In this document: positions 27,301 to 58,909 of the stretch, piece after piece | Layout: the number at the start of each line of letters is the position of its first letter | How positions within the stretch are numbered: the first letter of the stretch is position 1 | Origin: Branchiostoma floridae | Lineage: Eukaryota > Chordata > Leptocardii > Amphioxiformes > Branchiostomatidae | Assembly (NCBI RefSeq): GCF_000003815.2 | Contig: NC_049981.1 | Coordinates: 3,896,699 to 3,960,698 of the forward strand | Reading direction: 5' to 3' | Length of the DNA stretch: 64,000 nt | Made by a program: the position numbers and the translations under genes | Notes under the pieces: generated by a model | What the model saw: only the letters and a program-made list of their open reading frames with translations | Told to the model about the DNA's origin: nothing | The model's database searches: none

Positions 27301-30300
27301 CAGTTGTTCCCAAAGTCTCCACAATCCCGTCAGACGTTCCCGGTGCGGATTACGTCTACGTCGTGTCCGTCCGTACGGGAACCCAACCTGATGCCGGCAC
27401 GGCGTCTGTGATCGGGCTAATGATCACAGGGTCAGCGGGCAGGACAGCCATGGTTACTCTCAACCCTGCAGGCCTGGTGAGATGTGTGACGTTTATATAT
27501 TTCGGCGTCTTTAAACAAATACCTTTACGAGGCAGTTGCTTGATATGATTTGCATGCATAATGTACTGCAAACATTGCCATGGAGAGAAGAGACACAAGT
27601 ATAAATCATAAACGAAATCACAATTCATCCTGTTCGTATCTGTCTTTAGATCCTAGCCAGAGGAGGTGACACGTACCACATCATGACGACACCGGCCTCC
27701 ATCGGCGAGCTCCAGTCTGTACAGGTCTGGCACGACAGCTCCGGGAAGGGCGCCATGGAGTCACTCTTCATAGACAACGTCAAGGTCTGGGACGTACAGA
27801 CATCACAAGGGTGGGTACTGGTTCAACTGTTTGCTTTCTGTTCCAGTCCAAAATGGAATCCACAAAAGCTAGAAGCTTTGAGAATTCATCTGGCACTTAA
27901 CACAGAAATTTTTTTTGTTGAAAAAATAACAGGAAATAAATAAGTGCTTCCAAGATAAATTGGATTGCTGATTTTAACAAAAAAGTTTCCCATATTTTTG
28001 TAATTTGTCGTTGACACCCGTTGTGATCTTATCCTCCTCTTTTGAAATCATGAACAAAATCAATGTCGTGTAATATAAATGATGAGCTGCTCTTATTTGC
28101 ACAGATGCTTTTTCCCATGTTACACCTGGTTGTCCTCTACCAAAGGAGACGGTAGGACGATAAGGACATTGAAGGCAGCTGATGGAGAAATGGGGTAAGT
28201 CCCGTAAACGCACATCATATACCAGGCAATATGGAATACAAACAATTTTACTGTCCAAAGACATGACTTGCCTATGAGACATGTCGTTATATTTACCTTA
28301 GGATGTTAGAGTACACCCTACCGACGTTTTCGTTCCTTCTGTACGACGAACATCTGCTCCTGTCAGCCGTGTGTAACTCCGGTGTGAGACACTTCAGCCG
28401 GGCGCAGCGCCTGGTTTGCTGCCTGGCACAGACCACCCTGTGGATGGTGGGCAGCGCCATGTGGTACGGAGTCAAACTGGGTGCACAAGATGTCATTCTG
28501 TTCGACGCTGGACTCATCACTCTCCGTCTGTCGGAACTGATTGGTACTGCAGCTACATCCTTCACAGTGTTCCTGCCAGTGTACGCCATCCTTGTGCCGA
28601 TGTTTCGCAAGCAGCCTGTGTTGGAGGATCAGATTCTCTCAGGTGTAATGAAAAAGCCGACATCTCAAACGACCTGCCGGTTTCCGTACAAGACGGTGGC
28701 GTGGATCCTCGCCATCCTGACGTCTGTCTGCAGCAGCTTCTTCGTCATCGTGTACAGTCTGCAGTTTGGAGCTAAGAGAAGCCAGGCCTGGCTAAAGGAC
28801 TTCGTCCTGGCATTCTTATTCTCTACGTTTCTGCTGGAGCCTGTTCAGGTTAGCATGCATTTTAAGTGTTTTCTGAGATTATACAGCGTGAATGGTAGAA
28901 TACGTGCTACCCTACAAACTACATGGTACAACTAGAGATGAGTTCGATCATGTTTGAAGGAGGGGTTTGGAAATTTCATGTTCAGGCAATCTACCAAAAC
29001 GCATGTGACTTAACCAATGTACGCACTTTGCAGATTTTTTTGACTGCTTACATAAAAACAGTCGTCATCGGTCCTATTGTGTGGTCTGTAACCGCTTGTG
29101 TCCGGAGAGTTTTGGGGGCGAATTCATCGGACACGGGACGATGTCCTATCCGTGTTTTTCAGAAAAAGAGCAGGGATTATAAAGGTGAGTCCACACACAT
29201 CTACCATGTAAAGACCATGGTAGATTGCTACGGCCGCACTGGTCAGTCTTTCTTTGTTAAGTTTCACGAAGAAAGCATGGACATTTTCTGTAACAACATA
29301 AAACGAAAACACTGTTGCATGTGGCATTACTAATCAACTAAGAGCCAAGGCTGTAAAATTGAGATTTCTTTGTTTATATTTTTTCATATAAACCTAACGT
29401 CATTGGTGTTTTGTATTTCTGATTCAGTTCCCGCTCGGAGGGTTTTGCCACCAGCCCCGAAGAAAACCGACCATGACCCGAACTGGACCGAGAGGATGAC
29501 TACAGGTAGAAACATCCTGGTGCTCCTGGTGTTTCTGCTCATCTTTACTGGAAATGCCTTCTACATCGGGATTCTGGGGTTCGACAGACACGCATACTAC
29601 GTCAAGACCTCGCTAGAGAATAGCCTGCTATCCGGATATGAGGAGGTACAGTTGGAAGCTTACCATCGAATTGGCAATCCGGCTATAAGCAAGTGGTACC
29701 AATTTGAGAAAATTCGTTATTTTTACACTATTTCGGTTGGTTTTCTGTTTGGTTGGTTGGCTGGCTAGCTGACTAGCTGACTTGTTGTTTGGTTTGTTAG
29801 TTGGTTTGTTTGTTGGTTGGTTGGTGATTGGTTAGCTGGTTGATTGATTGATTAGCATAACCAATAAATTACGTTTAGGCATTAAAAAACAGTTTTGTAC
29901 AGTGAGCAGCTGACGATGATGATCTCTTTTTGAGGATTGCAAACGACAATGACCAACAACAAATCATCATCATCATCATCGCGGGCTGCTTGCCCGGACC
30001 AAGTCCACCCTCTCCTTCCAGACATCTCTGTCCCTCATAACATATATCGACTTTAAAGCAAGCTACACAGATCTACAGAATACGGACATGTCGTAATTTT
30101 ACACTGTTTTCTCGGGAGTGTACTGTGTAGTCAAGTAATCAATTTCACCTGCAGGTTGCCACAGCAGACGATGCCTGGGAGTGGCTGTCGTCTGAACTGA
30201 TCCCGTCTCTCCACCCAGAGCGGGGGTACAGCGGACAGAAGCTCAGCTGGCTGGACAAACAGTTTCCGGCTGGAACGAACTCGTTCCGGATCGGTCCTGT

Positions 30301-32631
30301 TCGCCTGGAGAGAACTACCAAATATCCAGGTGGGAAAATATCGCAGATCCCAAAGAGCCTGTGTGCAATGTTCTGAGTAAATTGGGTAAAGGGGCAGTTG
30401 TACTGCTCCTTAAGTCTTAATCGCGATGTTCATTCAATTTCAGAGGAACCAATAGATATAGACCTTGAAACGAGTGACCAAAGGCTTTATCCTGAGCTCT
30501 TTATGGTTCTACTGAATGGAGCTCTCGGTCGACAGGGTGAACAAGAATGTCCATCCAACGGGACCACGAATATTGTCGACGAAGTCAGGTATATAGACAA
30601 ATTCTTTTGGTATTTGTTTCCATTTCCGGGGAAGATCTGCTCAATTTTCGTGCAATATGTTTTTTAAATACACATGTAATTTTTTTATTCTCTGTATGTA
30701 ATTCAACTTTGATTTGATTATCTAGTCCAATAATGTACTTCCTGTATGTTTCAGAAACGGGAGTTCGGCGTGCTTGACCACGGTGGACCTGCCACGAGGT
30801 GCTGGTCAGGCTGCTGCAGTGATAGACTTCCTAAAACAGACCGACTGGATCCTGATGGTTTCAGACACTCTCATCCTCCGGGCCAACTTCTACCACCCTG
30901 ACGTCAAGCTGTTCAGCAGCGTGGTGTTCAGGCTGCAGTACCTCCCAGGGGGCGCTGCTGAACTCCAGCCCAGTATCCAGACCTTCCGGCTGTTCCAGTA
31001 CCAGACAGCAGACGACTATGTCCAGATGCTTTTCCACATCTTGTTCGTCCTTTTCTACATCTACAACGTCCTAAATGAGGTTTGGAATATACGGAAGAGC
31101 GGTCGTGCGTACTTCGCCAGTTTCTGGAACATCTTGATCCTGTGCAACATTGGCTTGTCGACAGCCGTCATTGTGACCTTCGCACTTCGGTACATCCAGG
31201 CAGCTGCCACACTGCGTGATATACAACAAGCAAAAGGTATATGCTTATAAACTATCTACATGTTGCTGACATTTGTGGAAAGCAGAAAACTTTTTTGCAT
31301 ATGTAAAATGTATCATTTGCTGTTTTGCGTACTATTTATTGGAGAAGTCTAGAAATTGTCGGAATACCAAGAAATATCGACAGTAATGTTTTCATACATG
31401 GGATTTTCACAGAGCTGTTCGGTATCAATGAGTTTGTAGACATCAGTACCGCAGGTCAATGGGACGCTACCTTCAAGGAGGTTCTGTCCTTCTCCATCTT
31501 CATCAGTACCTTCAGCATCCTGCGTGTCCTCAACTTCTCCAGGGGCGTGGCTACCGTCTACGCTCTGCCTCGTGTACGTACAGTAGAAATCATCTTGAAC
31601 ATCTCCAGCAAAAATGTTAAGGCTTTCGTCCAATCTGTTTATCCAATTTGTAAAATAAAAAAAATAAATAGTATTTTTTTACACATAGATCCTATACGGC
31701 GAAGCCTTCGGGTTTGCGGTGTACATGCTGCTAATCATATTGGCCTACGGCATCAGTGGGGTTTTGATCTTCGGCAACAACATGGAGATCTTCTCCGGCT
31801 TTAAGCAAACGTCGTACGTGCTGTTTGAGATGGGCTTGGGGAGGCCGTTCGTCGGTGTCTTTGCGGACGATATGAAGGCAGTGGATCGAGTCATGGGACC
31901 TCTGTACTATTCTACATTCGTCATGGTCTTCGTCTTTTACCTGGTTAGCCAAAAATCAGATTATTTCATTCTGTCTTATGTATACATATATGTATCATGA
32001 TTTGTTATCACCAACCATTTTTAAGTTTGCATAATAATTGCAACAGCTTCATCAACACTATATAGCAAAATACCTATGTTCTCCTGCAGATGAATCTGGG
32101 AGTGGGGATGCTCTGTAACTGGCTGAGCTACTGTCAGACGTCAGACGACATCGGCGTGGACACGGCGATGGGAGATTACTTCTGGAACTCCTTCAGGAGT
32201 CTTCTGGGCATGCGTCATGAGTCCCAGACCTCTGACGGTAATATCAGCATTACAATTGTCTAACAGTTTTGTTAGCTCATAGAAAGTCATATTTTTGTAA
32301 CCAAAACGGTTTTCCCAATGACAGCATTTAATTGCACCTATAAGATCGTAGGAAGTCATGTTGTGATTCCAGTAGGTTTATTGCTATGAAATTTCCCCTA
32401 AAATTGCTATCAAGAAACAAAAGGTAAAGATGTATTAAAATGTATTACGTTCTTGCCGTTTCTAAAGATGAAGCACCACTTCCGGACCACTTCATAGAAG
32501 AGACCCTCCAGCGGACTGAAACGGTACTGCAGGAAGTAGACAGGGTGACTGACGTGATGTACAAATTTGAGTGCAAGAAGCGTCAGCTGATTCCACTGTG
32601 TGACGTTCAACCAAGTACTTCACAAGCTTGA
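3196..32631 (+). CDS. Polycystin-1-like protein with Sushi and F5/8C ectodomain (multi-exon gene, 5' end not seen)
   Basis: Spliced gene. Exons identified: 3196-3378, 4211-4377, 4743-4889, 5113-5254, 6327-6514, 6869-7015, 7983-8127, 9200-9387, 9747-9893, 11095-11277, 13163-13329, 14325-14471, 17489-17630, 18058-18242, 18503-18655, 20411-20549, 21133-21609, 22045-22208, 23562-23649, 24032-24228, 24593-24658, ?-24907, 25400-25958, 26359-26459, 26755-27000, 27210-27476, 27650-27810, 28105-28194, 28302-28848, 29034-29184, 29428-29645, 30155-30329, 30444-30588, 30755-31236, 31413-31573, 31689-31943, 32090-32237, 32468-32631. Phases agree at every readable junction. Order: Sushi, F5/8C x3, Sushi, F5/8C x2, mucin-like stalk, GAIN-like region, GPS, TM1, PLAT, TM2-TM11, stop. 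In known families, PLAT plus an 11-TM layout with a GPS defines polycystin-1 relatives, which pair with PKD2-type subunits in the membrane. The start Met and signal peptide are not visible and may lie upstream of the window. Family assignment is strong; the exact orthologue (PKD1L1/2/3) is not decided. Confidence 0.9.
3426..3913. mobile_element. MITE-like element with 15-bp terminal inverted repeats and TA duplication
   Basis: The left end CTACAGTCAAACCTG (3426-3440) matches the right end CAGATTTGACTGTAG (3899-3913) with one mismatch, and both are flanked by TA (3424-3425 and 3914-3915). Internal GTGGCC(A/G)CTATAGA motifs repeat near both ends. No transposase is encoded. TA duplication fits a Tc1/mariner-type non-autonomous element. 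Similar ends recur near 58170 (GTCAGGTTTGACTGTACAG). Confidence 0.65.
4211..5254 (+). CDS. F5/8C (discoidin) unit 1, three exons
   Basis: Exons A 4211-4377 (phase 1 to 0), B 4743-4889 (0 to 0) and C 5113-5254 (0 to 1). The product starts CSDPLGMGSGAIPDDSIT and carries EPYIGRLNE and IGQWLQ (A), VDLGEVKRVSGTIVQ with SYKLQYSQDRVSWTTY (B), and PVTNLLNGSVDARYVRF ending in GC (C). These are the hallmark motifs of F5/8 type C domains, which bind glycans or lipids at cell surfaces. The first and last Cys would form the usual closing disulfide. The three-exon plan with outer phase 1 is shared by all five units, which explains how they could multiply without breaking the frame. The A-B intron holds an inverted (CA)n/(TG)n tract. 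Confidence 0.9.
4454..4552. repeat. Inverted (CA)n/(TG)n microsatellite
   Basis: A short (CA)n run is followed by long (TG)n runs separated by CCCATG, so it can fold on itself. It sits in the A-B intron of F5/8C unit 1 and yields only spurious His/Thr or Cys/Val reading frames. Confidence 0.9.
5540..5640 (-). repeat. SINE body fragment (inverted copy)
   Basis: The reverse complement reads CACGTGTGGCGGGTTCTTTG, then ACGTGCCTGGGG and CCTCCATTTAACGTCCTATC, matching 42095-42175 and 13488-13570. The tRNA-like head is missing. Confidence 0.65.
6327..8127 (+). CDS. F5/8C (discoidin) unit 2, three exons
   Basis: Exons A 6327-6514, B 6869-7015 and C 7983-8127. A gives AAPLPVCRRLLGMESGAIP and ends GEWLQ; B gives VDLGEMKRITGTIVQGR and TSYKLRYSADGMIWTTY; C gives VFSGNVDRNLPVTNLL, PVDARYVRFLPQTWEHY and EIVGCN. 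The phase pattern is the same as in unit 1. Exon A is longer at its 5' end than in units 1 and 4 by about seven codons, a feature shared with units 3 and 5. Its introns are similar in sequence to those of unit 3 (for example 6120-6290 against 9070-9175, and 7080-7115 against 10270-10305). Units 2 and 3 therefore arose from a duplication that included introns. Confidence 0.9.
8513..8590. repeat. 78-bp perfect palindrome
   Basis: Arms of 39 bp with no loop, centred between 8551 and 8552 (AAAAA|TTTTT); each arm holds CCAGGTGTTAAAAA. The region also has three ACCAATCAGA copies (about 8476, 8615, 8648). It lies in the intron between F5/8C units 2 and 3. Confidence 0.9.
9200..9893 (+). CDS. F5/8C (discoidin) unit 3, exons A and B only; exon C missing or in gap
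   Basis: Exons A 9200-9387 and B 9747-9893 are intact and splice-competent. A reads VAPAPACPHVLGMESGAIP to GEWLQ; B reads VDLGEIMRITGTIIQGR and TSYKLQYRADGVNWTTY. No exon C (VFxGN...ARYVRF...GC) is visible before the next Sushi exon at 11095. The intron after B carries a nested inverted repeat (9906-10224) and then a 316-base N gap that could hold a 142-base exon C. Because B ends in phase 0 and the next Sushi exon begins in phase 1, exon C is needed to keep the frame. Either it is hidden in the gap or the unit is broken in this allele. Confidence 0.8.
9906..10224. mobile_element. Nested inverted-repeat element
   Basis: Outer arms of about 60 bp (9906-9966 and 10162-10224; CTTTCTGGAACGAGTG against its complement) enclose a 71-bp tandem repeat. 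Each internal repeat is itself an inverted repeat (TCGACTGACCAGCTC...GAGCTGGTCAGTCGA). The element begins 12 bases after the end of F5/8C unit 3 exon B. Confidence 0.8.
10422..10737. other. Assembly gap of 316 N
   Basis: Unsequenced bases between F5/8C unit 3 exon B and Sushi exon 2; the missing exon C of unit 3 may be here. Confidence 1.
11095..11277 (+). CDS. Sushi/CCP domain exon 2
   Basis: A 183-nt exon, phase 1 to 1, acceptor TTCCAG at 11089-11094, donor GTAGG after 11277. It reads GCVDPPTQANTTGPVC, then CTYPCSPGYHITSGDV and SDGSWTETNLSCQ. It is a close copy of the exon at 3196-3378 with the same length and Cys layout. An earlier in-frame Met exists at 11052, but the alignment with copy 1 and the polypyrimidine-AG show that the coding part starts at 11095. 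It sits between F5/8C units 3 and 4 in the same gene. Confidence 0.85.
11817..12955 (+). pseudogene. Decayed copy of the Thr-rich stalk exon, split by an insertion
   Basis: The 5' piece (about 11790-11880) matches the live stalk exon at 21133 and its upstream intron: both follow TTTTCACAG and read STSxTTxxTLPxTT, but this copy meets an in-frame TAG after CGTTTA near 11850. About 900 bases of unrelated sequence follow. The 3' piece (about 12800-12955) resumes with TTTTTTSIRTSKQTTAPTT and NWFSTLQQTSSTRLMDTS, parallel to KQTTAPTTSPS and NWFSTQQQTSSTRLVDTS in the live exon, then stops at TAA. The upstream intron (11635-11816) also matches 20940-21132. It is therefore a duplicate inactivated by a stop and an insertion. 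Confidence 0.75.
12965..13100. repeat. GC-rich CGCGTTTCGC repeats
   Basis: Short imperfect repeats of CGCGTTTCGCC and GCGCTTCG with high CpG content, unlike the AT-rich surroundings. They lie in the intron before F5/8C unit 4. Confidence 0.5.
13163..17630 (+). CDS. F5/8C (discoidin) unit 4, three exons spread by insertions
   Basis: Exons A 13163-13329, B 14325-14471 and C 17489-17630, with phases 1-0, 0-0, 0-1. A reads CSEPLGMESGAIPDDSIT and EPYIGRLNTVAG; B reads VDLGDIKVVTGTIIQGR and FVTSYKLQYSTNRISWTTF; C reads VFPGNVDRSLPVTNLLDN, PVDARYVRFVVQSWHSQ and EIVGCS. The B-C intron is about 3 kb and contains a large foldback element. Two relics of extra B exons flank the live B (13861-13998 and 17173-17250), suggesting that two units were once present and collapsed to one. 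The A exon resembles unit 1 most closely in its short 5' end. Confidence 0.88.
13488..13733 (-). mobile_element. tRNA-derived SINE, full-length-like copy
   Basis: On the minus strand the head reads GCGTGGCGCAGCGGCAGG (box A) and later GGTCTCGAGTTCGAATCC (box B), as in a tRNA-type RNA polymerase III promoter. The body (GGGAGAGCAACACTCC-type and CACTTTACTCTGCTAGGTG) is shared with copies at 42085-42245, 43950-44122 and 5540-5640. It lies in the A-B intron of F5/8C unit 4. Confidence 0.75.
13861..13998 (+). pseudogene. Relic of an F5/8C exon B
   Basis: It translates as VVVQDTKRVIGTIIHGRL, then a degraded SKLQYSTDRSTQTTYALD and a TAA stop at 13996-13998. Compared with live B exons it lost the VDLG start, the Trp of SWTTY and the 3' donor, and no good acceptor precedes it. 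It is most similar to the unit 5 exon B (shared RLDR). It would not be spliced in. Confidence 0.8.
14780..15240. repeat. Diverged tandem repeat of about 190 bp
   Basis: Three copies share CCAAATTTCAGATCATTTGG, CAGAGGAGCCAAAA and TGGTCAAAAATGGCAAAAA. It is directly followed by the large foldback element, of which it may be a flank. Confidence 0.6.
15258..16870. mobile_element. Large foldback element with arms of about 600 bp
   Basis: The segment 15258-15855 is repeated in reverse complement at 16195-16870. Examples: CATGTTGGATTTTCTGGGGT against ATCCAACATGGCCGCC, TCATCTTCGGGAGTG against CACTCCCGAAGATGA, ATTTGAGCTCGATTT against AATCGAGCTCAAATG. The spacer is about 340 bases. Arms are diverged by indels and substitutions. 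No protein-coding gene is visible. It lies in the B-C intron of F5/8C unit 4. Confidence 0.8.
16895..17058. repeat. Two-copy tandem repeat of about 80 bp
   Basis: Both copies contain GCCTGGGGGTAT, CTATCCCTACCTCCAT and CCAAATTTCAGCTCATTTGG. They follow the foldback element directly. Confidence 0.75.
17115..17152. repeat. Hairpin with 17-bp perfect stems
   Basis: TATATTGCAATCCATAC and GTATGGATTGCAATATA flank the loop TGTA. It adjoins the truncated exon B relic at 17173. Confidence 0.9.
17173..17250 (+). pseudogene. Truncated relic of an F5/8C exon B (3' half)
   Basis: The sequence reads VTSYNLRYSTDLITWTTY then TSSDGSEI, which is the second half of exon B without its first half and without a clear donor. 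It lies just upstream of exon C of unit 4 and just after a hairpin with 17-bp stems at 17115-17152, where the missing half may have been lost. Confidence 0.75.
18058..20549 (+). CDS. F5/8C (discoidin) unit 5, three exons
   Basis: Exons A 18058-18242, B 18503-18655 and C 20411-20549. A reads VAPLPACPHLLGMESGDIP and ends GEWLQ; B reads VDLGDMMPVMGTIIQGR, then a two-codon insertion (NN) before PQWVTSYKLQYSTDRITW; C reads VFPGNVYMSLPVTNLLDN, PVDARYVRFVVLSWQLQ and EIVGCN. Exon B is 153 nt where the others are 147. Exon C ends in phase 1 at a GTAGGT donor and joins the Thr-rich stalk exon at 21133. It is the last adhesion module before the stalk. Confidence 0.9.
18656..20410. other. Intron of F5/8C unit 5, no gene seen
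   Basis: It holds a copy of the dispersed repeat starting TTAACCCTATTCAGACCGGG at 19076 with a G11 run, but no splice-competent exon or long coding ORF. Confidence 0.6.
21133..21609 (+). CDS. Thr/Ser-rich mucin-like stalk exon
   Basis: A 477-nt exon, phase 1 to 1, acceptor TTTTCACAG, proposed donor GTGAAC after 21609. It encodes about 159 residues rich in Thr and Ser, with tandem repeats of about 14-15 residues of the type TTTITTSSSTTTPTT (45-nt DNA repeats), followed by KQTTAPTTSPSPSS and NWFSTQQQTSSTRL. The composition predicts heavy O-glycosylation and an extended stalk lifting the F5/8C and Sushi modules away from the membrane. The tandem DNA repeat makes length variation between alleles likely. 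The 3' donor is weak and is the least certain border, although the phase agrees with the next exon. Confidence 0.75.
22045..24658 (+). CDS. Stalk continuation with charged helical segment, four small exons
   Basis: Exons 22045-22208 (FGEDSFDYSDDETSSMSPM, Pro/Thr-rich), 23562-23649 (EEIPVLIKTLSEKVNHF to RKELLK), 24032-24228 (ends PLEQLKQEKNRKERLKSR) and 24593-24658 (VVRETRDMFELMDAAADKL). Phases are 1-0, 0-1, 1-0 and 0-0, fitting each other and the flanking exons. The last three are charged and leucine-spaced, consistent with helical or coiled-coil structure and with the helical subdomain of a GAIN fold before the GPS; that is inference. At least one further exon must be partly lost in the N gap at 24709-24808. 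The intron 22209-23561 holds AT-rich tandem repeats. Confidence 0.65.
22540..23250. repeat. AT-rich tandem repeats of about 190-220 bp
   Basis: Three to four diverged copies share CATGATTTTTGGTATGTAG, CATAATTAATGAGGAAAGTT and ATAGGACTTTCAAACTTG. They fill the intron between 22208 and 23562. A related motif set occurs at 40640-40850. Confidence 0.75.
24395..24460 (+). mobile_element. Penelope-like retroelement end relic (candidate)
   Basis: CTCTGGCCAAAGACAGCGGG then TTCTGTCTGAAACGTCCGCC: a 6-bp hairpin (AGACAG/CTGTCT) directly followed by GAAACGTC. The same layout is seen at 25279-25312. The relation to Penelope-type elements is from memory of such motifs and is tentative. Confidence 0.4.
24709..24808. 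other. Assembly gap of 100 N (size probably arbitrary)
   Basis: Splits a coding exon of the polycystin-like gene; the exon resumes at 24809 in an open frame. Confidence 1.
24809..25958 (+). CDS. GAIN-like ectodomain region preceding the GPS, two exons (first truncated by gap)
   Basis: The first exon is cut by the N gap and ends at 24907 before GTAAG (SIPDVGTVPISDDVGSIVF...SSMK). The second, 25400-25958, starts in phase 0 after TTCCACAG with VVAFVDDPFVWSVEKTEV and continues for 186 codons with many beta-strand-like stretches, DVDTELQVYFRFHDFPTEEE and ending GWLMVGVKKK. The opening pattern NPFxW-like (here DPFVW) and a final W-x-x-V-G-V strand are usual upstream of the GPS in polycystin-1 relatives. 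The exon ends in phase 1 and joins 26359 directly. The 25195-25330 part of the intron between them is a retroelement relic. Confidence 0.75.
25195..25330 (+). mobile_element. Retroelement relic with partial hammerhead-like core
   Basis: CTGAGGA (25279-25285), then a perfect 7-bp hairpin GATGTCT-GAC-AGACATC (25287-25303) and GAAA (25304-25307) follow the order CUGANGA - stem II - GAAA of the hammerhead ribozyme core. A convincing stem III and cleavage triplet were not found. An inverted partial copy of 25225-25284 lies at 815-885. Confidence 0.4.
26359..27000 (+). CDS. GPS motif and TM1, two exons; cleavage triplet absent
   Basis: Exons 26359-26459 (phase 1 to 0) and 26755-27000 (0 to 0). The first gives FTLQTAAVSCLMRENENQTW, then DNRRCQ; the second starts VGIDTNEETTWCTCDITPGS and later ATFLALPNFVDFDKF. 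This matches the GPS layout (C, W, C, then T-x-C-x-C, followed by an F-x-x-PN-x-x-D-F segment). The HLT/HLS triplet where autoproteolysis occurs in the family is replaced by DIT plus a nine-residue insertion. TM1 is TVYGTILALWMIFLMSQLLI. The 5' border of the first exon is chosen at the CCCTGCAG acceptor because it alone fits the upstream phase. Cleavage is therefore doubtful, but the domain identity is clear. Confidence 0.8.
27210..28194 (+). CDS. PLAT domain, three exons
   Basis: Exons 27210-27476, 27650-27810 and 28105-28194 (phases 0-0, 0-2, 2-2). After a linker from TM1 the PLAT fold starts with ADYVYVVSVRTGTQPDAGT, continues SVIGLMITGSAGRTAMV, then GELQSVQVWHDSSGKG, SLFIDNVKVWDVQT and CFFPCYTWLSSTKGDGRTI. 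These are the standard PLAT strands: Y-x-V-x-V-x-T-G, A-G-T, the V-W-H-D-S-x-G loop and the final F-x-C-x-x-W-L. In polycystin-1 relatives this intracellular domain follows TM1 and binds phospholipid and calcium in the families studied. The linker between TM1 and PLAT (SHIALSTAVGNSIAVG...) is longer than usual. Confidence 0.93.
28302..28848 (+). CDS. Membrane segments TM2 to TM5 (first part), one exon
   Basis: A 547-nt exon, phase 2 to 0, acceptor TTACCTTAG and donor GTTAGC. Hydrophobic helices are RLVCCLAQTTLWMVGSAMW (TM2), IGTAATSFTVFLPVYAILV (TM3), VAWILAILTSVCSSFFVIVY (TM4) and FVLAFLFSTFLLEPVQ, which continues into the next exon (TM5). The pattern RAQRLxCCL before TM2 and FLLEPVQ at the exon end resemble RxxRLT.xx and QPLK in polycystin-1 relatives. 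An extracytoplasmic loop between TM2 and TM3 is followed by a cytoplasmic loop with two lysines (GVMKKPTSQ). Confidence 0.92.
29034..29645 (+). CDS. End of TM5, cytoplasmic loop and TM6, two exons
   Basis: Exon 29034-29184 (phase 0 to 1) starts IFLTAYIKTVVIGPIVWSV, finishing TM5, then gives a basic loop ending KKSRDYK. Exon 29428-29645 (1 to 0) gives VPARRVLPPAPKKTDHDP, then TM6 NILVLLVFLLIFTGNAFYIG and GFDRHAYYVKTSLENSLL, the start of the large extracellular polycystin (TOP) domain. The intron after 29645 contains a low-complexity (TTGG)n-type tract at about 29735-29870. Confidence 0.88.
29725..29870. repeat. Low-complexity (TTGG)n/(TTGA)n tract
   Basis: Imperfect GGTTGGTTGGCTGGCTAGCT, TTGGTTTGTTTGTTGG and TTGATTGATTGATT runs in the intron after TM6. 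Confidence 0.8.
30155..31236 (+). CDS. Polycystin (TOP) domain with TM7 and TM8, three exons
   Basis: Exons 30155-30329 (0 to 1), 30444-30588 (1 to 2) and 30755-31236 (2 to 1). Motifs: DDAWEWLSSELIPSL (the FWxWL-type start), TNSFRIGPVRLERT (NSxRIGxPRLRQ-type), TVDLPRGAGQAAAVIDFL and DWILMVSDTLILRANFY, which lines up with the DxxTRAVxxxFxxYN and W-x-D core of the extracellular domain of PKD1/PKD2 proteins. TM7 is MLFHILFVLFYIYNVLNEV and TM8 is FWNILILCNIGLSTAVIVTF. The extracellular domain in this family assembles the channel top and gates subunit pairing. Confidence 0.92.
31413..32237 (+). CDS. TM9 to TM11 with pore-loop region, three exons
   Basis: Exons 31413-31573 (1 to 0), 31689-31943 (0 to 0) and 32090-32237 (0 to 1). 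TM9 is EVLSFSIFISTFSILRVLNF; TM10 is FGFAVYMLLIILAYGISGVL followed by IFGNNMEIFSGFKQTSYVLF, the F-G-x-x-x-x-x-F-x-x-x-x-x-S pattern of the family; the pore loop region is EMGLGRPFVGVFADDMKAVD; TM11 is STFVMVFVFYLMNLGVGM. The selectivity-filter motif LGD of PKD2-type channels is not present here (MGLGRPF), as is usual for PKD1-side subunits. An alternative donor two bases upstream of 31573 would break the frame. Confidence 0.9.
32468..32631 (+). CDS. Terminal exon, short cytoplasmic tail
   Basis: Phase 1 exon after TTTCTAAAG; it reads DEAPLPDHFIEETLQRTETV, LQEVDRVTDVMYKFECKKRQ and ends in STSQA with TGA at 32629-32631. The heptad-like L/V spacing (TLQRTETVLQEVDRVTDVM) suggests a short coiled coil, the element through which PKD1-side subunits bind PKD2-side partners in known pairs; that role is inference here. 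The tail is short, about 54 codons. Confidence 0.85.
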
Positions 32632-33681: not shown

Positions 33682-33838
33682 TTTAACACTATTCAGACGG
33701 GATGAGGGCTTTTCAGACCTACGCCAAATTTCGCGTCGTATAATGACAGAACGGCTTACGCTAGAGCCAACAAATTTGTGAGTTTCTATTTCATGTAATT
33801 GGCAACAATTTTGCACTGGACAAAACTGGTCAAAATTT
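33682..33838. repeat. Dispersed repeat copy next to the satellite
   Basis: TTAACACTATTCAGACGGG, then GTCGTATAATGACAGAACGG and CTAGAGCCAACAAATTTG. It matches 326-400 (CTAACCCTATTCAGACGGGG, CTAGAGGCACCAAATC) and the start matches 19076. A three-copy family in this window. Confidence 0.6.
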
Positions 33839-35216
33839 GCATGTTTTCTATCTATTTCAGACCGAAATATGACAAAAAAACACATTTCCTCGGAAACAAA
33901 TTTTCTACCAGGAACCCCTACTCTACCCTAGCCCTAACCCTAACCCTACCACAAACTCTAAGCAGTCTCAAAAAAAATGGTCAAATTTGCATGTTTTCTA
34001 TCCATTTCAGACCGAAATATGACCAAAAAACACATTTCCTCGGAAACAAATTTTCTACCAGGAACCCCCTACTCTAACCCTAGCCCTAACCCTGACCCTA
34101 CCACAAACTCTAATCAGTCTCAAAATATGGTCAAAATTTGCATGTTTTCTATCCATTTCAGACCGAAATATGACCAAAAAACACATTTCCTCGGAAACAA
34201 ATTTTCTACCAGGAACCCCTACCCTAACCCTTGTCCTAACCCTAGCCGTAACCATAACCCAACAAAAACCCTAAGCAATCTCCAAAATATGGTCAAAATT
34301 TGCATGTTTTCTATCCATTTCAGACCGAAATATGACAAAAAAACACATTTCGTCGGAAACAAATTTTCTGACAGGAATCCCCTACCCTAAACCTAGCCCT
34401 AACCCTAACCCTAACACAAACTCTAAGCAGTCTCAAAAAAATGGTCAAAATTTGCATGTTTTCTATCCATTTCAGACCGAAATATGACCAAAAAACACAT
34501 TTCCTCGAAAACAAATTTCCTACCAGGAACCAATAGCCCTAACCCTAGCCCTAACCCTACCACAAACCCTAAGCAGTCTCCAGAAAATGGTCAAAATTTG
34601 GATGTTTTCTATCCATTTCAGACCGAAATATGACCAAAAACATATTTCCTCGGAAAGAAATTTTCTACCAGGAACATAGTACTCTTACCCTAGCCCTAGT
34701 CGTAATCCTAACCCTGACACAATCCCTAAGCAGTCTCAAAAAAATGGTCAAAATTTGCATGTTTTCTATCCTTTTCTAACCGAAGTATGACCCAAAAAAA
34801 CACATTTCCTCAAACAAATTTTCTACCAGGAACCCCCGACTCTAACCCTAGCCCTAACCCTAACTTAAACCCTAAGAAGTCTTAAAAAATGGTCGACATT
34901 TGCATGTTTTCTATCCATTACAGACCAAAATATGACCAAAAAACACATTTCCTCGGAAACAAATTTTCTCCAGGAACCCATAGCCCTTACCCTAACACTA
35001 ACCCTATAACCCTAACACTAACACAAACCCTAAGCAGTTTTTAAAAAAAATAGTCAAAATTTGCATGTTTTCTATCCATTTTAGACAGAAATATGACCAA
35101 AAAAACACATTTCCTCGGAAACAAATTTTCTAACAGGAACCCTTACCCTAACCCTTGCCCTTATACAACCCTAAGCATTCTTAAGAAAATGCATGTTTTC
35201 TATTAATTTCAGACCG
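33822..35216. repeat. Satellite array with telomere-like CCCTAA runs
   Basis: Ten units of about 150 bp. Anchors of GCATGTTTTCTATCCATTTC occur near 33840, 33990, 34141, 34303, 34455, 34601, 34758, 34903, 35064 and 35192. Each unit also has ACACATTTCCTCGGAAAC and CTACCAGGAAC, followed by irregular runs of CCCTAACCCTAGCCCTAACC. The CCCTAA orientation is the same in all units. Not coding, although an in-frame reading gives repeated FACFLSISDRNMTKKHI-type peptides. Confidence 0.9.
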
Positions 35217-36977: not shown

Positions 36978-37974
36978 CTAAAGATCCTCTTCTTGGGCCA
37001 TGTTGTCTAGTGTACTGTACTTTGAACTTCTAGGACCGAGTGGTTTCTCCGACTCTCGTAATAAGTGATCGTAACCATTCTTGTTACCATGGAGATGGTC
37101 GTAGCCAATACCCTGTTTCTTGCTCTCTGTCTCTGATGCACCGTGCAGATGATCGTACCCGAGCTGTGATTGGTTATTGGGGAGGACTGTTGCTATGGGA
37201 ACGGCGTATCCTTCGGCATCTTCCAGTTCATGTGCACGCGTAGCCATGGGAACCTCGTATCCGTCAGCGTCGCTTCCCGCTGTGCCGTGTCCTGAGTCAC
37301 GTGACGCGGTTGCCATGGGTTCGTTGTATCCTTCCGCCAACGGGAGCACTTCGCCATCAAAGGTAAAGTTCCCGCCTTTTTCGCTGGCCTCGAGTAGGTT
37401 GACTTCAGCATAGGGCGGAGTGCGCTTTGCAGGAGGAGTCTTTGGCCGGGGGCTAAAGATATACACATTCGTGGAACTATCGCGCCCCCTAGCGGCTGCC
37501 CCTGCTACTGCACCACGACAGGTATTATCCAAACGCGACGCATCATCGTCGGCGGCCTTCGCGATGCTCTCGTCAATCTCAGCGTATCCAGGGTCCGAAT
37601 ACTCGTCGTCCGTTCTAAAGCGGTCTTCAAAGAACACGTCGTCCGGATAGGCGTCCGCGTGTGGGCCGCCCGACCAGTCTTTCCCGCTCGGGGGAGGCCT
37701 AGGGGGAGAGGGGGGAACGAACTTCGGCGGGCCCGCGTGTCTGGGGGACTCCACCACAGGACTAACCGCGCCGTCCAACAAAGGTTGCTTCATATCACCG
37801 GAGTAACAGTTGTCAGGCGTGGCCCCGCGGTTGCTAGACATGGCGGCCAGCGCGGCGAACTCTGCCCTCTGACCGTAGTCCGGGTTCATGAGGCTAGTGC
37901 GGTCCTCCCCAGGTCGGAAAACCACGATGTCCGGCCGCGCTCCCGGGTTCGCCAGGATTTCCGCAACCTGTGGT
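36978..37974 (-). CDS. Cytoplasmic tail exon of receptor A with ITAM-like motif
   Basis: One large exon ending with the stop at 36978-36980. Counting from the Val codon at 37923-37925: Pro-rich PPSPPRPPPS (71-80), YAEI (Y114), YAEV (Y172), three repeats GYNEPMAT (Y200), GYEVPMAT (Y223) and GYAVPIAT (Y240), then YDHL at Y257, Y275 and Y285, and YSTL at Y303. Y275 and Y285 form YDHLHGNKNGYDHL, which fits YxxL-x6-YxxL (ITAM spacing) at 37062-37103. YxVP motifs resemble Crk/Nck-type SH2 sites and YAEI resembles a Src-type SH2 site by known consensus. The tail has no enzymatic domain, so it most likely acts as a phosphotyrosine scaffold. Confidence 0.85.
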
Positions 37975-40900
37975 CTGAAACCGAGAAAAAACGGTGCGTG
38001 TTAACTACCACGTTTTATATACATGTATCAAAAAATCATAAAATATTCAATTTGAAACATGTTTCATTGCCTTTTTTATTTGCTAAGGTCCACTGTGCAG
38101 TTAACAAAGCAATGTAGATGTCCTGGTGTTGGAAGTCTATTTTGGTAATTACACAGAAAGTGTTTGTTTTTCAAACTTTCACATAATTTGTAAGTGGTGG
38201 CAAAAATTGTGCGTAGAACTCTCCTCTTCCTTTCGAATTAGGCATTGAAAGTTTTCGTTACACACGCACGCAAACGAGCACACACGCGCCCCGTGGGCTC
38301 TCGGGCTATTTTGGGGCACGGCCGGGCATCAAGATTTTTTAATCTGACTTAAAATCAACCCGGGTCCCGGCAACAAATAGACGCCGTGATAACACCGATA
38401 GGTACCCCCAACGGTCCCCTGCAGTCCACCTGGACAAATTTTCTGCCCGGTCGGGGCTGCACCCCCTACCGAACCTGGTGTAAATTTAAATGGGAAGGCA
38501 GCATTTAATTTGACTCCTATACCATAAACTATTCTGTTGCATTCTCGCATCGAAGAATGTCAGCAACAACCGTGACTGTGTGTGACGACTGAAATGGAAC
38601 TTACTGTCGTTTCCTTCTCCTCCAATAGCAGCAGAAGCACCACAGCAACAGCAGGATCACTATGGCAACGCAGGCCAGGGTCCCGCCCACAATGGCGCCG
38701 ACTAATGGCGGCCTCTCGCTAGGGATGATGGTCAGGCCTGGCGGGGTGGTCAGGGTTTGAGGTGTATCGGTTGGACCAGCTGTGGAGGATCACCAATGGA
38801 ATTTGAGAAAGAAATTCTTATTAAGACAAGAAAAGTACAGTGACTTTCGTAATGTCTATAACAACTATTTACAGTACATACAAACAAACAGACATATATG
38901 GATATCTATAGATATGAATAAGTCAACATATTGAGTTTAGCGGGTCATTTACACTATCGGTTCTAAGGTATAAACAGTCTTTGACATATTTGCCTATTTG
39001 TACACAGTAAGGATGATAGCCTCCCAGAATATAGTTGAATGTGTCAAAGGATGAAATTACCAAATATGACACAGAAAAAAAGTAAATAGCAAAACTCTTT
39101 GATTAGAGGTTGGGCTCCGGCTGTTTAGGTGTATTTTTAGACGCTTTGTCATACTTACTATTTTATATTTCTCTATCATGTCAACGGCCAACCATACGTG
39201 TTTGACGGCCATATCAATATGTTAAACTAATTATGTTTTTATATATAAAGCATCAATTGAAGTTTACGTCTGCCGGCAGAGGTTTGGCCGCGGACGGACA
39301 TGATAGAAAACGGTACAAAATAGAAAGCCCGACAAAAAACACCTAAAATTCCTTTAGAAACACAGACGAAGCTGGGCCTGTACCTGGAAAGGAGATAGAC
39401 ACACACACAGGCAAACCTACCTCCCGCGATTGCAGTTGTTTCTGCGCTACTCGTGCTACTCAGCACAGGGACGCCTTCCGTCGGGCAAACTGAAAAAAAA
39501 GATGAAAAAAGTTGAAAAAGGAACTGGAAAAAGAGGAAAGTGGAAAAAGTGGACGTAAGATGGTGGTATTAATTGCGCCTCCTGCAAAAACAATATTTTT
39601 TTTTTTTGCTCACGTAAAATGTCATTATCAAGAGTACAGGTACGTAGAACTGCTGGGATAAAAATACACAATGACAGTAACCAGCAATAGTCCCTCTCCA
39701 CTTCTTATTTTTAATGTAGGAAAAGTGGCTTTTTTTTAATGAGATGGATCAGCATTCAATAACTTTACTTCTGTGACTATTTTAGAAGAGATAGTGGCAT
39801 GCCCCTAATAAGGGCCCGGTCACAGTCATCGTCGGATCGTCGCACGATCGAAAACATGGGGTATTCTCGGTATAATCGTGCACATGTCGTACAAGATTCG
39901 GCTGTCTTGTTACGAAAAAGGCTATCTTGAGGTAGTATCTCACATCACCTGAGCACCGGTGCGGCACTACGGGATTCAAAAGATTACTCAACGAATTTCA
40001 GAGATAAAGAACGAATTTTCTTACGTTTTTACTTGTGTATTTTGTTGTCTTCTAAGTCATACTCTTATGTATTACGTAATTATATAATACAACAGTGCCG
40101 CAGTGAACGAACCCCGCAGTGCCACGCCGGTACGAACCCCGCAGTGCCACACCGGTACCCCAAGAGCAGTAAGATACCACCTATATCACTCATTATACCA
40201 CTTGTGGTCATTTGTGCATTTAGCCTACAACCATGAACATGCAATAAAGATCATTATATTATATATATATAAATCGTGCGGCATCACGATCGCACTCGAC
40301 GGCCACCGACGCACCGTAAGCTGACAGATCACTATACCTGGTGATCTACTGGCGTTATATGTGATCCGCCATCCCGTGTTGCTTTGCGTGTTTCCGTCCG
40401 TTATGAACCGGATGTCGATGTGTTTTCCGGCGTAGTAGAAACACTTGGGGATCTGTGAGCCGCAGAAAGCTGAAGAGAAAACGCAACGGGATTATAATAA
40501 TAATAATAACTAGAGTTCGGCGACCTCATACCTCCATGAAAATGTAGAGCTTTCGTAAATTTCAGGCAATTGACCAACACATCAACATAATTCATGCATG
40601 GTGTTGTTCATCATTGACTAACGTACACATGTCACAATTATAAAATTCCCATTATTGATCATAAAGCGGTTTTGAATTTTTACCATAAATTATGCAAATA
40701 AGTTCCTCATTACCATATTTGGTATCTGCTTATATTCCACCTATCATAATTAACATGTGTTACGTGTATTGAGGTCCAGTTATTGAAAACATGGGAACTA
40801 TACAATTTCCTCATTAATTATGCAAGTTAAGTCCTCATTTGCATAGCATGCATATCATTGTGAACATCTTTGCCTAAGCTACCTGCATGCCTAAAATGCA

Positions 40901-43900
40901 GGCAATCCGTCGTTCCTTTCTGCAGTTATCCGCTTTGGAGTGTCTTGACAAAAACGCCCCTGCAGTTCCACAATTAAATGTCAGGGGACTGAAACTTGCC
41001 CCACATTTTTATGTCGCTAAAAGCTATCTACCACTTAAATGTCACGACCATATCACGCCAGTGACAAGAGATACATTGAAAAAACTGNNNNNNNNNNNNN
41101 NNNNNNNNNNNNNNNNNNNNNNNNNNNNNNNNNNNNNNNNNNNNNNNNNNNNNNNNNNNNNNNNNNNNNNNNNNNNNNNNNNNNNNNNNNNNNNNNNNNN
41201 NNNNNNNNNNNNNNNNNNNNNNNNNNNNNNNNNNNNNNNNNNNNNNNNNNNNNNNNNNNNNNNNNNNNNNNNNNNNNNNNNNNNNNNNNNNNNNNNNNNN
41301 NNNNNNNNNNNNNNNNNNNNNNNNNNNNNNNNNNNNNNNNNNNNNNNNNNNNNNNNNNNNNNNNNNNNNNNNNNNNNNNNNNNNNNNNNNNNNNNNNNNN
41401 NNNNNNNNNNNNNNNNNNNNNNNNNNNNNNNNNNNNNNNNNNNNNNNNNNNNNNNNNNNNNNNNNNNNNNNNCCACTTGTGTTAAAGCATCTTTCGCGTC
41501 CCTCTTTACACACACACAAACACACAGACACACAAACGCGGGGTAAAATATAACCTCCATGACATTTCATGGAGGTAATAATAATAATAATAACCAGGTG
41601 TATTTGGGCAGCCAGTAAGTACCCAAATCATGAGTAATGATGCTGTTAAACGTGGTCGATGCACCTCCTCGTCCCTCTTTACGTCCCTCCCGGAAGACGA
41701 TATAGTGGAAAGCTTCGTGAGGCTACAACAATCCGGTCGTCCTTGGTTGGGGGACTACCATCTAAGAACTGACCGGACCGCGCGTTGCTTAATTTAGGAG
41801 ATCGAGGGATCGGGTGTACCAACGCGCCACGCGGTCGTAGCGAATTTTCTTTTTTTTTACTCAATGGTCACCACGTAACAAGGCCATGAAGGCCACTCAA
41901 GGTTACGGGTTACATGATTGGAACTGTAACAGCAACTCTTCGCCCTAGGTCTGAAACATCATGATTGAGACCAGCCCAATTGCTCACTATGAGTGAGCTG
42001 ATCCAATAGGCGAAGCAGGGGTTACGAGGGCTGCTCGGGAGATTCTCTACCACTATTTTGGCCGGAATAGTTTGATCCACTCGGGTGGATGTTCGCACAT
42101 GTGGCGGGTTCTTTAACGTGCTTGGGGTGTTGCTCTCCCCGAACACGGGGCCTCCATTTAACGTCATATCCGAAGGACGGCCCAAGCCGAAGCTAGGTAC
42201 TCATTTTCACTTGAGTGAAGTGAGGAAAGTCGTGTTTAATGGCAATACACTGTTGTTGCAAGTTTGAAGTCAATATGGTGTGAGTTAGACACACTGCAGG
42301 ATCTGAGTAATCTCCAAGCATATCCTACGGTGCCATACGATAGTACCAAAGCTGGCCAGGGAGTATAGCCGGCTATTGGAGTCAAGCGGGCATTCTAAAG
42401 TTTCTTGCAGTTTGTGTCTGCTTTTTGATCCGCTATTTCTTAATTTCTCGCAACGGTGAGACGACGACAACAAGTCGAGGCTCGCGGACGCAAAGTAATG
42501 GGATACACGACTTTCCCTAGCCAGTATCAATGACAATGACAATGACAATGGCAATGCAAACACATCTTTTCCTTCCAGGGCCGCGACAGTGGCCCGCAAC
42601 TGAGGTTCTCGTGGCTCAAATTTCCAGACGTCTCGAACGATACGACTAACTTTTTCGTCCATGGTTCAAACTGGCAAAACCAACGGTTCGCGCAGTGACT
42701 GGTATCATGACTTCCTGTAACGGTCACCCAGCTGACACGTCTGCCGGGGCGCGCGGGCAAAGCCAGGCGGAGGGCAATTTCGGCAATTGACACCTCATCG
42801 GCAAGCACAATTTGATTAGGCAACAATTGGATGTTAATAGCCTTTGTTGGAACCGAATGAAGCCAGATCCTACGGGAAGTTTGATACTATACATTACGCA
42901 CCGTGGAACTGGTTGGAGATTAGATCTGAGAACAGCAGGAATATGAAGAAACAAGGTCATACACCACATGGCCCGAAATCGACCTTAATTTTCGTCTTCC
43001 GAACTCCTATCCACATACTTGATATTGTTTCATTTCACCCAGAGGTTTGAGGGTTATGTTGACTACAAACATGCGGACATACACACCAAAACAAAAACAA
43101 TACCTCCATTTTCCACAGAGGTAATAATGATTCTTTTATAACTAAGACTCATATAAGATTTATTCTATACCCCTTTTTTGACTTTTTGTAATAGCTGTTG
43201 CCATACATCGTATCATATACAATTGTCGAGCAATAAAGTTTTTTTCTTCTGTATTAGACACTGCTGAAATTATGTTGTTGTTTTTTTGCAATCTAAACGA
43301 CTTGTCTAAGAAACACATCGGGATCTTCGAGTCTTGGAGACATGTGAAATAAACCGTTTATCTAAGACTGCTGAAATTATTGTTTGGTTTAGAGACGATT
43401 TTTTTTCAAATGATTTTTTTTTAATTTTTTTAAGTGTTTAAGGAAGGAGTTTCTTTTTCTTTGAAATGAATTTTTCTAAACTTGAATATAAAATGTGCAG
43501 ATATGATATAAGCATCCTGTGGATACGACGTATCTTTACCTCCGTATTCGCCCCTGTCAGGACCAAGATCCGTGAAGTGGACGATGAAGGCGTCCTTGCA
43601 GTCGTGGTTAGGACCGCCCCCTCGCGGCTCCAGGTCAAACTGCTCCACCAACACGATGGGGTAAAAGCCATCCTCGCTCTAAGGTAAAAAATCCATTGAG
43701 CGTTAACAAAAAGAAGTGAATTTTACCCGTGTGACTTAATGGTATAGCTACCTTGTGTCTGAGGCGTCATGATATCGATAGTTTGTGTTGTTCGTAGTTT
43801 TTTTTTTTTCGATTTTGGTTTCAGACAGACAATATGGCACTGCACTCAAGTCCAGTGACTTACTTTAACACATACAAAGAACAGACGAAGGTAAAGGTAG

Positions 43901-45078
43901 TCCCATAGACTATCTGTACAGTATTGGAAGCCTTAACCGCATTTTTCACCCACCCCAAGTGAAGCCAGGTACCCATATTTTACACCTAGATGAAGTGAGG
44001 GAAGTCGTGTTAAGTGCCTTTCCTAAGGGCATAAGGTAGGTGAGATTATACTGGATGGTGCGAACCCGTCACCACTTGGTTCTGAACCGAACACTCTGAT
44101 GTTACGCCACACAATTCCAGACAATATCTATGGCTAAACCTGGAAGTTGCTATGTAAATGTGATTTTGTAAAAATCATGTACATTTGAATCTATTTGAAA
44201 CTCTTCTTCTATCAACCAACCAATATGGCGACTGTGATGACAGGTAAATGTAAATGTGAATTTCAAAAAACATGTACATTTGAATCTATTTGAAACTTTT
44301 CTTCTATTAACCAACCAGTATGGCGACTGTAACGACACGTAAAGAAATCCTATTAAGAAAGGTTGGAGGCCAATCTCACCGATAATCTCCACAAGCAGTC
44401 CAGGTGAGTTGGGTAGTGGTGGTCCGAGAAGTACGGCGACGTCAGGACGCCCCCGGCGGCCGTCACCGGTACTACCTCAGGGTGGCTCATCTTGATACAG
44501 GCAGGTGGAAGACCTGGGAGAAAAAAAAATCGAAGAAAAGAAATCAAAAAAGTGATACTCGTACTCCGAATCAACAAATAAACTTCTTCGTGGACAAGCT
44601 TGGAGACATTCACTTGTCACATATTTCTAGAAAGGGCTATACTGCTCCTTGTCGCATGGCGGCTTCGTGACCATATCCAACCTCATTACCTATGAATCTG
44701 ATAAAACTACTAGTAGTCACTATTAAAGATTGTCCAAATCGTTCTCTTAGCATCGAAAAAAATTCCATGCATGATGTCTAGTTTCATAATAATGGACTGC
44801 GGCCATAGGTTTGTTTACGTACATGCGTATTATTGAGATCTATTAGATCGAAAATGGGGCATCCTTATTTTCACGTTATTTGTTTGTGAGATAAGATCGG
44901 CTTGCAGGTGTCTCTGCCGTGTTGACGGTAAACAAGGTCCGGTCTGGTGAACAGGCAGGCCCGGCGGGCTTCTACCGGGGGAAAACAGTCGCTCTTCTGC
45001 CGGACTTCTGGCCTTAGAGTCCGTAGGGCGGCCACCAACGACGCTGAACGTGTGTGTGTGAGTGTGCGTACGTGTGTG

Positions 45079-52146: not shown

Positions 52147-53140
52147 CTACTGTGCTTCAAGTTCAGGGAGTCTGTCGTAATCTGACATTTGACCTCTGAG
52201 CTTCTTTTGGTCCACAATTCCTCGCGCCAAGTGATCATAGTCGTCCGACCCTTCCCCGAGATGGTGGTACTCACTGTCTGGGCTGTTGCCATGGAAACCG
52301 TTGCTATGGGAACTGTTGCTATCAAGGCGGTCATATTCTGCTTTTGATTGGTCGCTGGTTGTCACCGTTCCTATGGGAACGGCGTATCCGTCGTCCGATC
52401 CGTCAGACAACCGAAGAAGGTTCATTCCCGCCTTTTTTTGTCCGAACGATCGCGGGGGCTTGCGGGGCGGGGACGTTACCATGGGAACATCGTAGTAGTC
52501 GCTGGACGGTCTGATGACGTCACCTACGACGTCAGGTTTGGGGTTGATGCTTTTTCGCGGGGATTTTTGCGGCGGTGGTCGCTTCGGTTTTACCGGTGCT
52601 TCCAGGTTCCCTGGTTTGTAAACGGTCGCGTAGGGAGGATAGCTGTTCCCTCTGGCGGGTTTTGTCGGCGGTGCAGTCCCCGGGGCCCCCTCTTTCTGTT
52701 CTCTCGCGTTGCAGGGTACCTTTACAATTCCTTCGTCGATCTCCGCATAACACGGGTCGGAGTACGGCTGTTGCGTTTCGATGCGGTCCCTGGGTAAAAC
52801 GTCGGAGTACCCGTATGGTGTGACGTCACGGATGATGACATCTTTCAGGGGAGCGGGTTGAAGGACATGCCTACCGTTCGGAAAGGGGAGAGGTGCGGTT
52901 TGAACCTCACTGCCTTTCAAACGTTTAGCGACCAATGGCTCCTGTACACGCTTCCATTCTGCGCCTTCTTGGATGGGAAAGGGGCAGTCGGCGGTTTTTC
53001 TGATCGGTTTGGACGGTGTGACTGGCGCCACCGGTTTACCGTAGTTTGCGTCCATCAGACTCGTCTTCTCCTCACCCACACGGAAAGTGATGACGTCAGG
53101 ATGGGGCGCGGAAGGGCCCTGATCCCCAGCCGGCCGTTGC
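52147..53140 (-). CDS. Cytoplasmic tail exon of receptor B with ITAM-like motif
   Basis: Exon starts in phase 2 after TTTCCAG with QRPAGDQGPSAPHPDVITFR and ends at the stop 52147-52149. Counting from the Val codon at 53077-53079 (VGEEKTSLM): YAEI at Y111, Pro-rich SH3-like PVKPKRPPPQKSPRK (162-176), YDVP at Y196, YAVP at Y232, YDRL at Y249 and Y301, and DSEYHHLGEGSDDYDHL at 268-284. The last is YxxL-x6-YxxL with an acidic residue three before the first Tyr, matching the classic ITAM consensus D/E-x-x-YxxL-x6-8-YxxL (52228-52269). YAEIDEGIVKV is also shared with receptor A (YAEIDESIAKA), and EDRTSLM/EEKTSLM near the start. The conserved elements are mostly around tyrosines, as expected for docking sites under selection. 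Confidence 0.85.
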
Positions 53141-57805: not shown

Positions 57806-58002
57806 ACTCTCCAAGCAGAAGTTAGGCTCCGGTTGTTTTTTTTAACGTTTTTTTAGTCGTTTTTATCGGGCTTTCTATTTTGTCATTTTTCTTGAAGTTA
57901 GGTTTTGACACAGCAAGATAAAATACAAAATAGAAAGCCCGATAAAAACGAATAAAAAAAACGTTTAACAAACAGCCGGAGCCTAACCTCTGCTTGGAGA
58001 GT
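57806..58002. mobile_element. Palindromic (foldback) element with arms of about 85 bp
   Basis: Left arm ACTCTCCAAGCAGAAGTTAG, GCTCCGG, TTTTATCGGGCTTTCTATTT and right arm AAATAGAAAGCCCGATAAAA, CCGGAGCCTAAC, CTCTGCTTGGAGAGT. A decayed relative is at 39103-39370. Confidence 0.85.
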
Positions 58003-58662: not shown

Positions 58663-58909
58663 AACGCCAGTTCACCGGTACCTTTACCCACGCACAGGGT
58701 AACCTATATCCGTTTGTTATAAAAAAAATGTGACAGGGCATTTAGGGATAGCAAGTCGATGAACGGTAATTCAAAACTGGCATATTTTGCAAATACTGCA
58801 ATTTATTTAAAACCACCTTCCGTTGTGGCTTGATATCCCATATCCCATATCTCAATTTAGAAACAACGGATATAGGTTATCCCGTGGATAAAGGTGAACT
58901 AGCGTCAAC
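58663..58909. mobile_element. MITE-like element, second copy of the 53649-53858 family
   Basis: Left TIR GCCAGTTCACCGGTACCTTT, ACCCACGCACAGGGTAACCT and right TIR AACAACGGATATAGGTTATC, CCGTGGATAAAGGTGAACTA. The interior GCTTGATATCCC is shared with the first copy. Confidence 0.75.

Follow-up and report, generated by a model that had tools for sequence, protein, structure and literature searches.

The immunoreceptor tyrosine-based activation motif (ITAM) consists of two YxxL/I units, about 6–12 residues apart, in a cytoplasmic tail, and in its consensus the first tyrosine is closely preceded by an acidic residue. In a window of 64,000 nucleotides from the amphioxus Branchiostoma floridae (the window being the whole stretch of DNA analyzed), an initial annotation placed a YxxL-x6-YxxL pair in the tail of a CUB-domain receptor and proposed a recognition-to-Syk signaling route with no adaptor. 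The question raised by this locus is whether the gene, its relatives, and the kinases of the same genome agree with such a route, or whether another use of the tyrosines describes the tail better. The peptide YDHLHGNKNGYDHL is encoded exactly by the minus strand at 37103–37062. A plus-strand reading of 37062–37103 is rejected because its translation yields no such peptide.

The pair lies in the last exon of gene A, for which a splicing model predicts seven exons on the minus strand with GT/AG internal splice borders and compatible phases:

50664–50742, minus strand: exon 1, with the start codon and a hydrophobic N-terminus, MEPRTVCATCLLLVVAGSIPAAAQST, read as signal peptide (by eye); donor GT in phase 1
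44380–44513, minus strand: exon 2, first part of the CUB domain
43540–43678, minus strand: exon 3, middle of the CUB domain
40338–40469, minus strand: exon 4, end of the CUB domain
39421–39489, minus strand: exon 5, Ser/Thr-rich stalk
38605–38779, minus strand: exon 6, stalk followed by the transmembrane helix AIVGGTLACVAIVILLLLWCFCCYW (by eye) and then RRRKR
36978–37974, minus strand: exon 7, cytoplasmic tail to the stop codon, 997 nt with 14 tyrosines

The coding sequence of 1725 nt has one terminal stop and gives a product of 574 aa, which comprises a signal peptide, one CUB domain, a Ser/Thr stalk, a transmembrane helix, and a tail of ~331 residues; exon 7 is located within an open frame of 340 aa. 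The CUB domain matches PF00431 with an E-value of 4.9e-11 over residues 43–155, and its score of 43.4 bits, like the 33.9 bits of the paralogue gene B described below, exceeds the curated cut-off of 21.4. In the Pfam search of A and of the modeled part of B, CUB is the sole domain above the cut-off. The nearest PDB sequences to the gene A CUB are the CUB domains of PCPE-1, MASP, and neuropilin, which say little about the ligand. The transmembrane helix contains zero charged residues (by eye) and is followed by RRRKR; nothing in such a helix points to an adaptor, which is in keeping with the adaptor-free arrangement that had been proposed.

Several other features share the window. A polycystin-type gene occupies 28267–32630 on the plus strand (limits by eye), and its exon at 30726–31250 matches PF08016 PKD_channel (6.7e-10) and PF20519 Polycystin_dom (2.1e-6). 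Upstream of it, at 9687–10046, is an F5/8 type C exon (6.6e-14), perhaps of the same or a neighboring gene. A satellite at 33822–35161 separates the polycystin-type gene from gene A; its 152-bp unit, which carries telomere-like CCCTAA runs, is repeated ~8.8 times. In addition, a possible coding exon start, MADSGSTSTVLGKRKRKTGAGRPRKYSTPAKK..., is found on the plus strand at 62148–62426, for which Pfam gives nothing at E<=0.01.

The C-terminal part of the A tail is organized as a row of four YxxL motifs, YDHL-x14-YDHL-x6-YDHL-x14-YSTL, with spacers of 14, 6, and 14 residues. The third YDHL that the initial annotation had placed 18 residues upstream is present in the translated tail, and a fourth motif absent from that annotation, YSTL, follows 18 residues downstream. 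YxxP motifs and a YAEI precede the row:

37062–37103, minus strand: central pair YDHL-x6-YDHL
37146–37157, minus strand: first YDHL, x14 ahead of the central pair
37008–37019, minus strand: fourth YxxL, YSTL, x14 past the central pair
37197–37328, minus strand: YxxP motifs YNEP (37328–37317), YEVP (37259–37248), and YAVP (37208–37197)
37575–37586, minus strand: YAEI within DPGYAEIDE, retained in B

Codon choice varies among the three YDHL units of A, with leucine encoded as CTG, CTC, or TTA, and units so unlike at synonymous positions do not derive from a recent DNA duplication.

Gene B is a tandem paralogue on the same strand, and its domain order and the phases at shared junctions agree with those of gene A. 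The end of its tail exon lies 1.4 kb upstream of A exon 1 and 15 kb from the A tail exon:

56021–56145, minus strand: first CUB exon of gene B
55749–55872, minus strand: second CUB exon
54971–55120, minus strand: third CUB exon (the spliced protein matches PF00431 with E 4.4e-8)
54639–54779, minus strand: stalk exon
53870–54014, minus strand: transmembrane exon
52147–53140, minus strand: tail exon, homologue of the A tail (tblastn E 9e-16)
52228–52269, minus strand: YHHL-GEGSDD-YDHL, the central x6 pair, preceded by Asp (−3) and Glu (−1)
52324–52335, minus strand: first YxxL, YDRL, x18 ahead of the pair
52168–52179, minus strand: fourth YxxL, YDRL, x16 past the pair
52375–52494, minus strand: YxxP motifs YDVP (52494–52483) and YAVP (52386–52375)

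The B tail thus repeats the layout as YDRL-x18-YHHL-x6-YDHL-x16-YDRL, four YxxL motifs with spacers of 18, 6, and 16 residues. The scan of 56200–64000 for a signal-peptide exon of gene B gave 10 candidates, none of them convincing. A juxtamembrane block, PD[IV]xxFRxGE[DE][KR]TSLM...YG, is also well kept between A (37934–37872, minus strand) and B (53100–53038, minus strand), and shows no match in Pfam.

Additional tandem copies nearby are rejected by tblastn with A and B over 100 kb of flank on each side (20 segments of 10 kb), which gave no extra copy and, beyond gene A itself, one chance-level match (E 0.53). In the whole genome, where match counts are lower bounds, the A tail finds at least two matches (A and B) from three candidates at E<=1, and the B tail finds A, B, and two chance-level matches (E 6.6 and 8.7).

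Among 20,000 composition-preserving shuffles of each tail, a YxxL/I pair appears in the A tail in 0.33% (x6), 0.9% (x6–8), and 2.0% (x6–12) of cases and in the B tail in 0.34%, 1.1%, and 2.6%, respectively, while a YxxL/I count as high as observed appears in 0.2% (A) and 0.6% (B). Translated in six frames, the window gives 121,769 residues, among which the loose x6–8 pattern has eight matches; two fall in the A and B tail exons, and the remaining six sit in frames of 22–107 aa. The shuffle odds are modest and the YxxL pattern by itself is suggestive only, no proof of function; support for a functional pair comes from its recurrence in paralogue B and not from the pattern alone.

The two tails have diverged, with identities of 96/303, 99/286, and 98/303 under three aligner settings (~32%) and 30–34% identity at non-tyrosine positions. 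Four-fold degenerate sites are identical at 22/54, 26/59, and 23/54, against 26% expected from composition, so that the tyrosines have outlasted much synonymous change. The A tail has 14 tyrosines in total and the B tail 15; the share of aligned A tyrosines that stand opposite a B tyrosine is 9/12, 9/13, and 9/12 under the three settings, a count that comes from one paralogue pair and from an aligner that may favor pairing tyrosines. Because 9 of 12–13 tyrosines are kept despite ~32% identity, selection on the tail tyrosines is very probable. Under two settings, the motif tyrosines and leucines of the C-terminal stretch are kept 8/8, compared with 10/48 of the other residues aligned there (Fisher 3e-5); under the third, a gap falls within the last motif and puts its leucine out of register. 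The length of the central spacer is a different matter. The six-residue spacers, HGNKNG in A and GEGSDD in B, have zero residues in common in register, and 143, 110, and 133 of the 319 windows of 14 residues in the A/B alignments (three settings) are likewise free of indels. Selection on the x6 spacer length is therefore weakly supported, and retention of the spacer does not serve as proof of it.

The ITAM-like geometry described for the A tail was thus borne out in A and again in a diverged paralogue, both with a spacer of 6. The strict ITAM pattern can be written as [DE]xxYxx[LI]x6-12Yxx[LI]. The B motif DSEYHHLGEGSDDYDHL matches it, with the acidic residue present (DSEYHHL); in A, nothing acidic occupies positions −1 to −3 ahead of the central pair.

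A reader for such a pair can be sought in the same genome, where an SH2 search gave at least 73 matches from 81 candidates, some of whose loci were examined. At C15:6243300–6251500 (loci L030 and L043), exons for an N-terminal SH2, a second SH2, and a kinase are found in order. For the N-SH2 exon, the best 11 of 17 PDB sequences (E<=1e-12) are Syk/ZAP-70 chains, whose E-values of 1.8e-40 to 1.5e-36 sum both SH2 domains; compared with the Syk N-SH2 alone the exon scores 80.1 bits (i-E 1.3e-21), and the best other family, Grb7, reaches 61.1 bits. The second SH2, downstream, is above the Pfam cut-off, and exons farther downstream carry the Gly loop, VAVK, HRDLAARN, and DFG (by eye). Judged by these domains, the C15 locus is a Syk gene. 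At C12:9799140–9813400 (L026, L029, L041, and L042), an SH2, ankyrin-like stretches (by eye), a second SH2, and kinase exons follow one another. The best PDB matches of its SH2 exon are SHP-2 (6e-22), then ZAP-70 (3.7e-21) and Syk (1.3e-20), and Pfam reported SH2 only on the given exon; since SHP-2 tops the PDB matches, the label of a Shark/HTK16-like gene follows the order SH2, ankyrin-like, SH2, kinase as seen by eye, and the locus is best called Shark-like. Other SH2 exons were tentatively named by eye as SHP-2 (L028), Csk, Crk, RasGAP, PLC-gamma, and SOCS. Invertebrates are described as having a single Syk-like gene plus HTK16/SHARK (PMC10253181), and amphioxus as having Lck and a SLP-76/GADS/Itk complex (PMC8211107, PMC5431462). 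With a Syk gene on C15 and a Shark-like kinase on C12, a candidate reader of the pair exists.

Taken together, A and B would each encode a receptor with one CUB domain, a single membrane pass, and a long tail for phosphotyrosine docking. A ligand on the CUB domain would cluster the receptor, a Src-family kinase would phosphorylate the C-terminal YxxL cluster, and the central YxxL-x6-YxxL would serve as an ITAM-like site for the Syk or Shark-like kinase of the same genome, while the upstream YxxP and YAEI motifs may draw other SH2 proteins such as Crk. Observed directly are the gene structures, the order of domains, the motif layout of both paralogues, the kept tyrosines, and the Syk and Shark-like genes, whereas the signaling steps are proposed. 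The parts of this explanation differ in strength: that the tail works as a tyrosine docking site is likely, that its x6 pair is used in the manner of an ITAM stands at somewhat under even odds, and the explanation as a whole is tentative, falling a little short of an even chance. The ITAM reading of the initial annotation is accordingly kept in part. The geometry and its retention in the paralogue speak for it; the missing acidic residue in A, a spacing equal to that of FcεRI β, the ITIM-like motifs 2 and 4 of both genes, and the weak case from x6 retention speak against it.

The alternative that survives best, though still rather unlikely, is that the YxxL cluster would be a low-affinity or inhibitory site, either FcεRI β-like or a row of ITIMs, which binds the SH2 domains of Src, SHIP, or SHP-2 with no Syk-type bridging. 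The ITIM pattern [SIVL]xYxx[LVI] is matched by three of the four YxxL motifs of A (LGYDHL, IGYDHL, SKYSTL) and two of the four of B (SEYHHL, SDYDRL), with motifs 2 and 4 matching in both genes; however, the residues at −2 are unlike between A and B at motifs 1–3, and ITIMs need no tight x6 pair. The SHP-2-like SH2 exon at L028 (by eye) is consistent with this alternative, as is the spacer, which has six residues in FcεRI β and seven in FcRγ (PMC3598417). Lyn and SHIP1 are described as binding FcεRI β and Syk as binding γ (PMC3995055), and SHIP1 is reported to bind γ too (PMC3598417). FcεRI β, as described there, resembles A and B in having two YxxL motifs around a six-residue spacer, but it spans the membrane four times as one subunit of a multichain receptor, and its spacer has an extra tyrosine that binds SHIP1 and that the A and B spacers lack. 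A phosphotyrosine-dependent inhibitory receptor of amphioxus has also been published (PMC8211107). Against a purely inhibitory tail, gene B fits the strict ITAM consensus.

Alternatively, the YxxL motifs may serve as YxxΦ sorting signals, which clathrin adaptors (AP-2) would recognize to drive endocytosis, instead of as docking sites that become phosphorylated. All four C-terminal YxxL motifs of A and all four of B match YxxΦ, as sorting signals would. This alternative is distinctly unlikely: sorting accounts neither for the x6 pairing nor for the YxxP motifs conserved alongside it, and tyrosines outside YxxΦ are retained as well.

Another possibility, a very unlikely one, is a DCBLD-like scaffold in which the YxxP motifs would do the main work through Crk/CrkL and the YxxL row would be secondary. 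YxxP is matched four times in each tail, and the stretch GYAVPI is the same in both. DCBLD1 and DCBLD2, with eight and seven intracellular YxxP motifs, respectively, bind CRKL through them, and Src-family and Abl kinases promote this binding (PMC6029619). As characterized there, they resemble A and B as single-pass CUB receptors with several conserved intracellular YxxP motifs; unlike A and B, they have LCCL and FV/FVIII domains, with rodent DCBLD1 lacking FV/FVIII. Membership of the DCBLD family is rejected because Pfam finds neither LCCL nor F5/8 in A or B. Moreover, the YxxL row is kept at least as well as the YxxP set. Lastly, it is most improbable that the pair is an accident of a short internal repeat, GYDHLHG, and functionless in itself, for although two A units have GYDHLHG in common and about 1% of shuffled tails show the x6–8 pattern, the units diverge at synonymous sites and the layout recurs in a 32%-identical paralogue.

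A broader form of the preferred docking-tail explanation treats the two genes together. A two-gene, single-CUB family would couple recognition by the CUB domain directly to Syk or Shark, using an x6 ITAM that has a further YxxL on either side and shares its chain with Crk-type YxxP motifs, and may form an activating and inhibitory pair, with B ITAM-like and A ITIM-leaning. Put as fully as this, the proposal is unlikely.

Among known receptors, the Draper ITAM has a spacing longer than the x6 of A and B. The engulfment receptors Draper-I of Drosophila, with an ITAM of its own read by Shark (PMC4503800), and MEGF10 of the mouse, with an ITAM of its own read by Syk (PMC8092387), are described as adaptor-free and resemble the reading of A and B in this respect, with Shark or Syk acting after Src-family phosphorylation. 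In contrast to A and B, the Draper ectodomain consists of EMI and NIM/EGF-like repeats (PMC8092387), and Pfam shows no EMI or EGF-type domain that would place A and B in the Draper/MEGF10/CED-1 group. Closer in phylogeny is an immunocyte glycoprotein of Halocynthia roretzi that bears a pair of ITAMs (Takahashi et al. 1997, cited in PMC5465252), which, like A and B, is a membrane protein of an invertebrate chordate with the ITAMs in its own chain. It is linked to phagocytosis and aggregation; the likeness to A and B is one of description, and the citing account leaves a CUB domain unmentioned. Ciona transcripts for ITIM and ITAM proteins are mentioned in the same source (PMC5465252). An adaptor-free receptor in an invertebrate chordate is thus no first, given the two-ITAM glycoprotein of the ascidian and the already established Draper–Shark and MEGF10–Syk pairs. 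In the open-licence PMC literature consulted, neither a CUB-domain receptor with an ITAM nor an amphioxus ITAM receptor was found described.

The principle of an adaptor-free ITAM is already known from ascidian, fly, and mouse receptors. If the tails of A and B do recruit Syk, they would provide amphioxus with a self-contained route from CUB receptor to Syk, and would offer a simple system for ITAM signaling as it was before antigen receptors.
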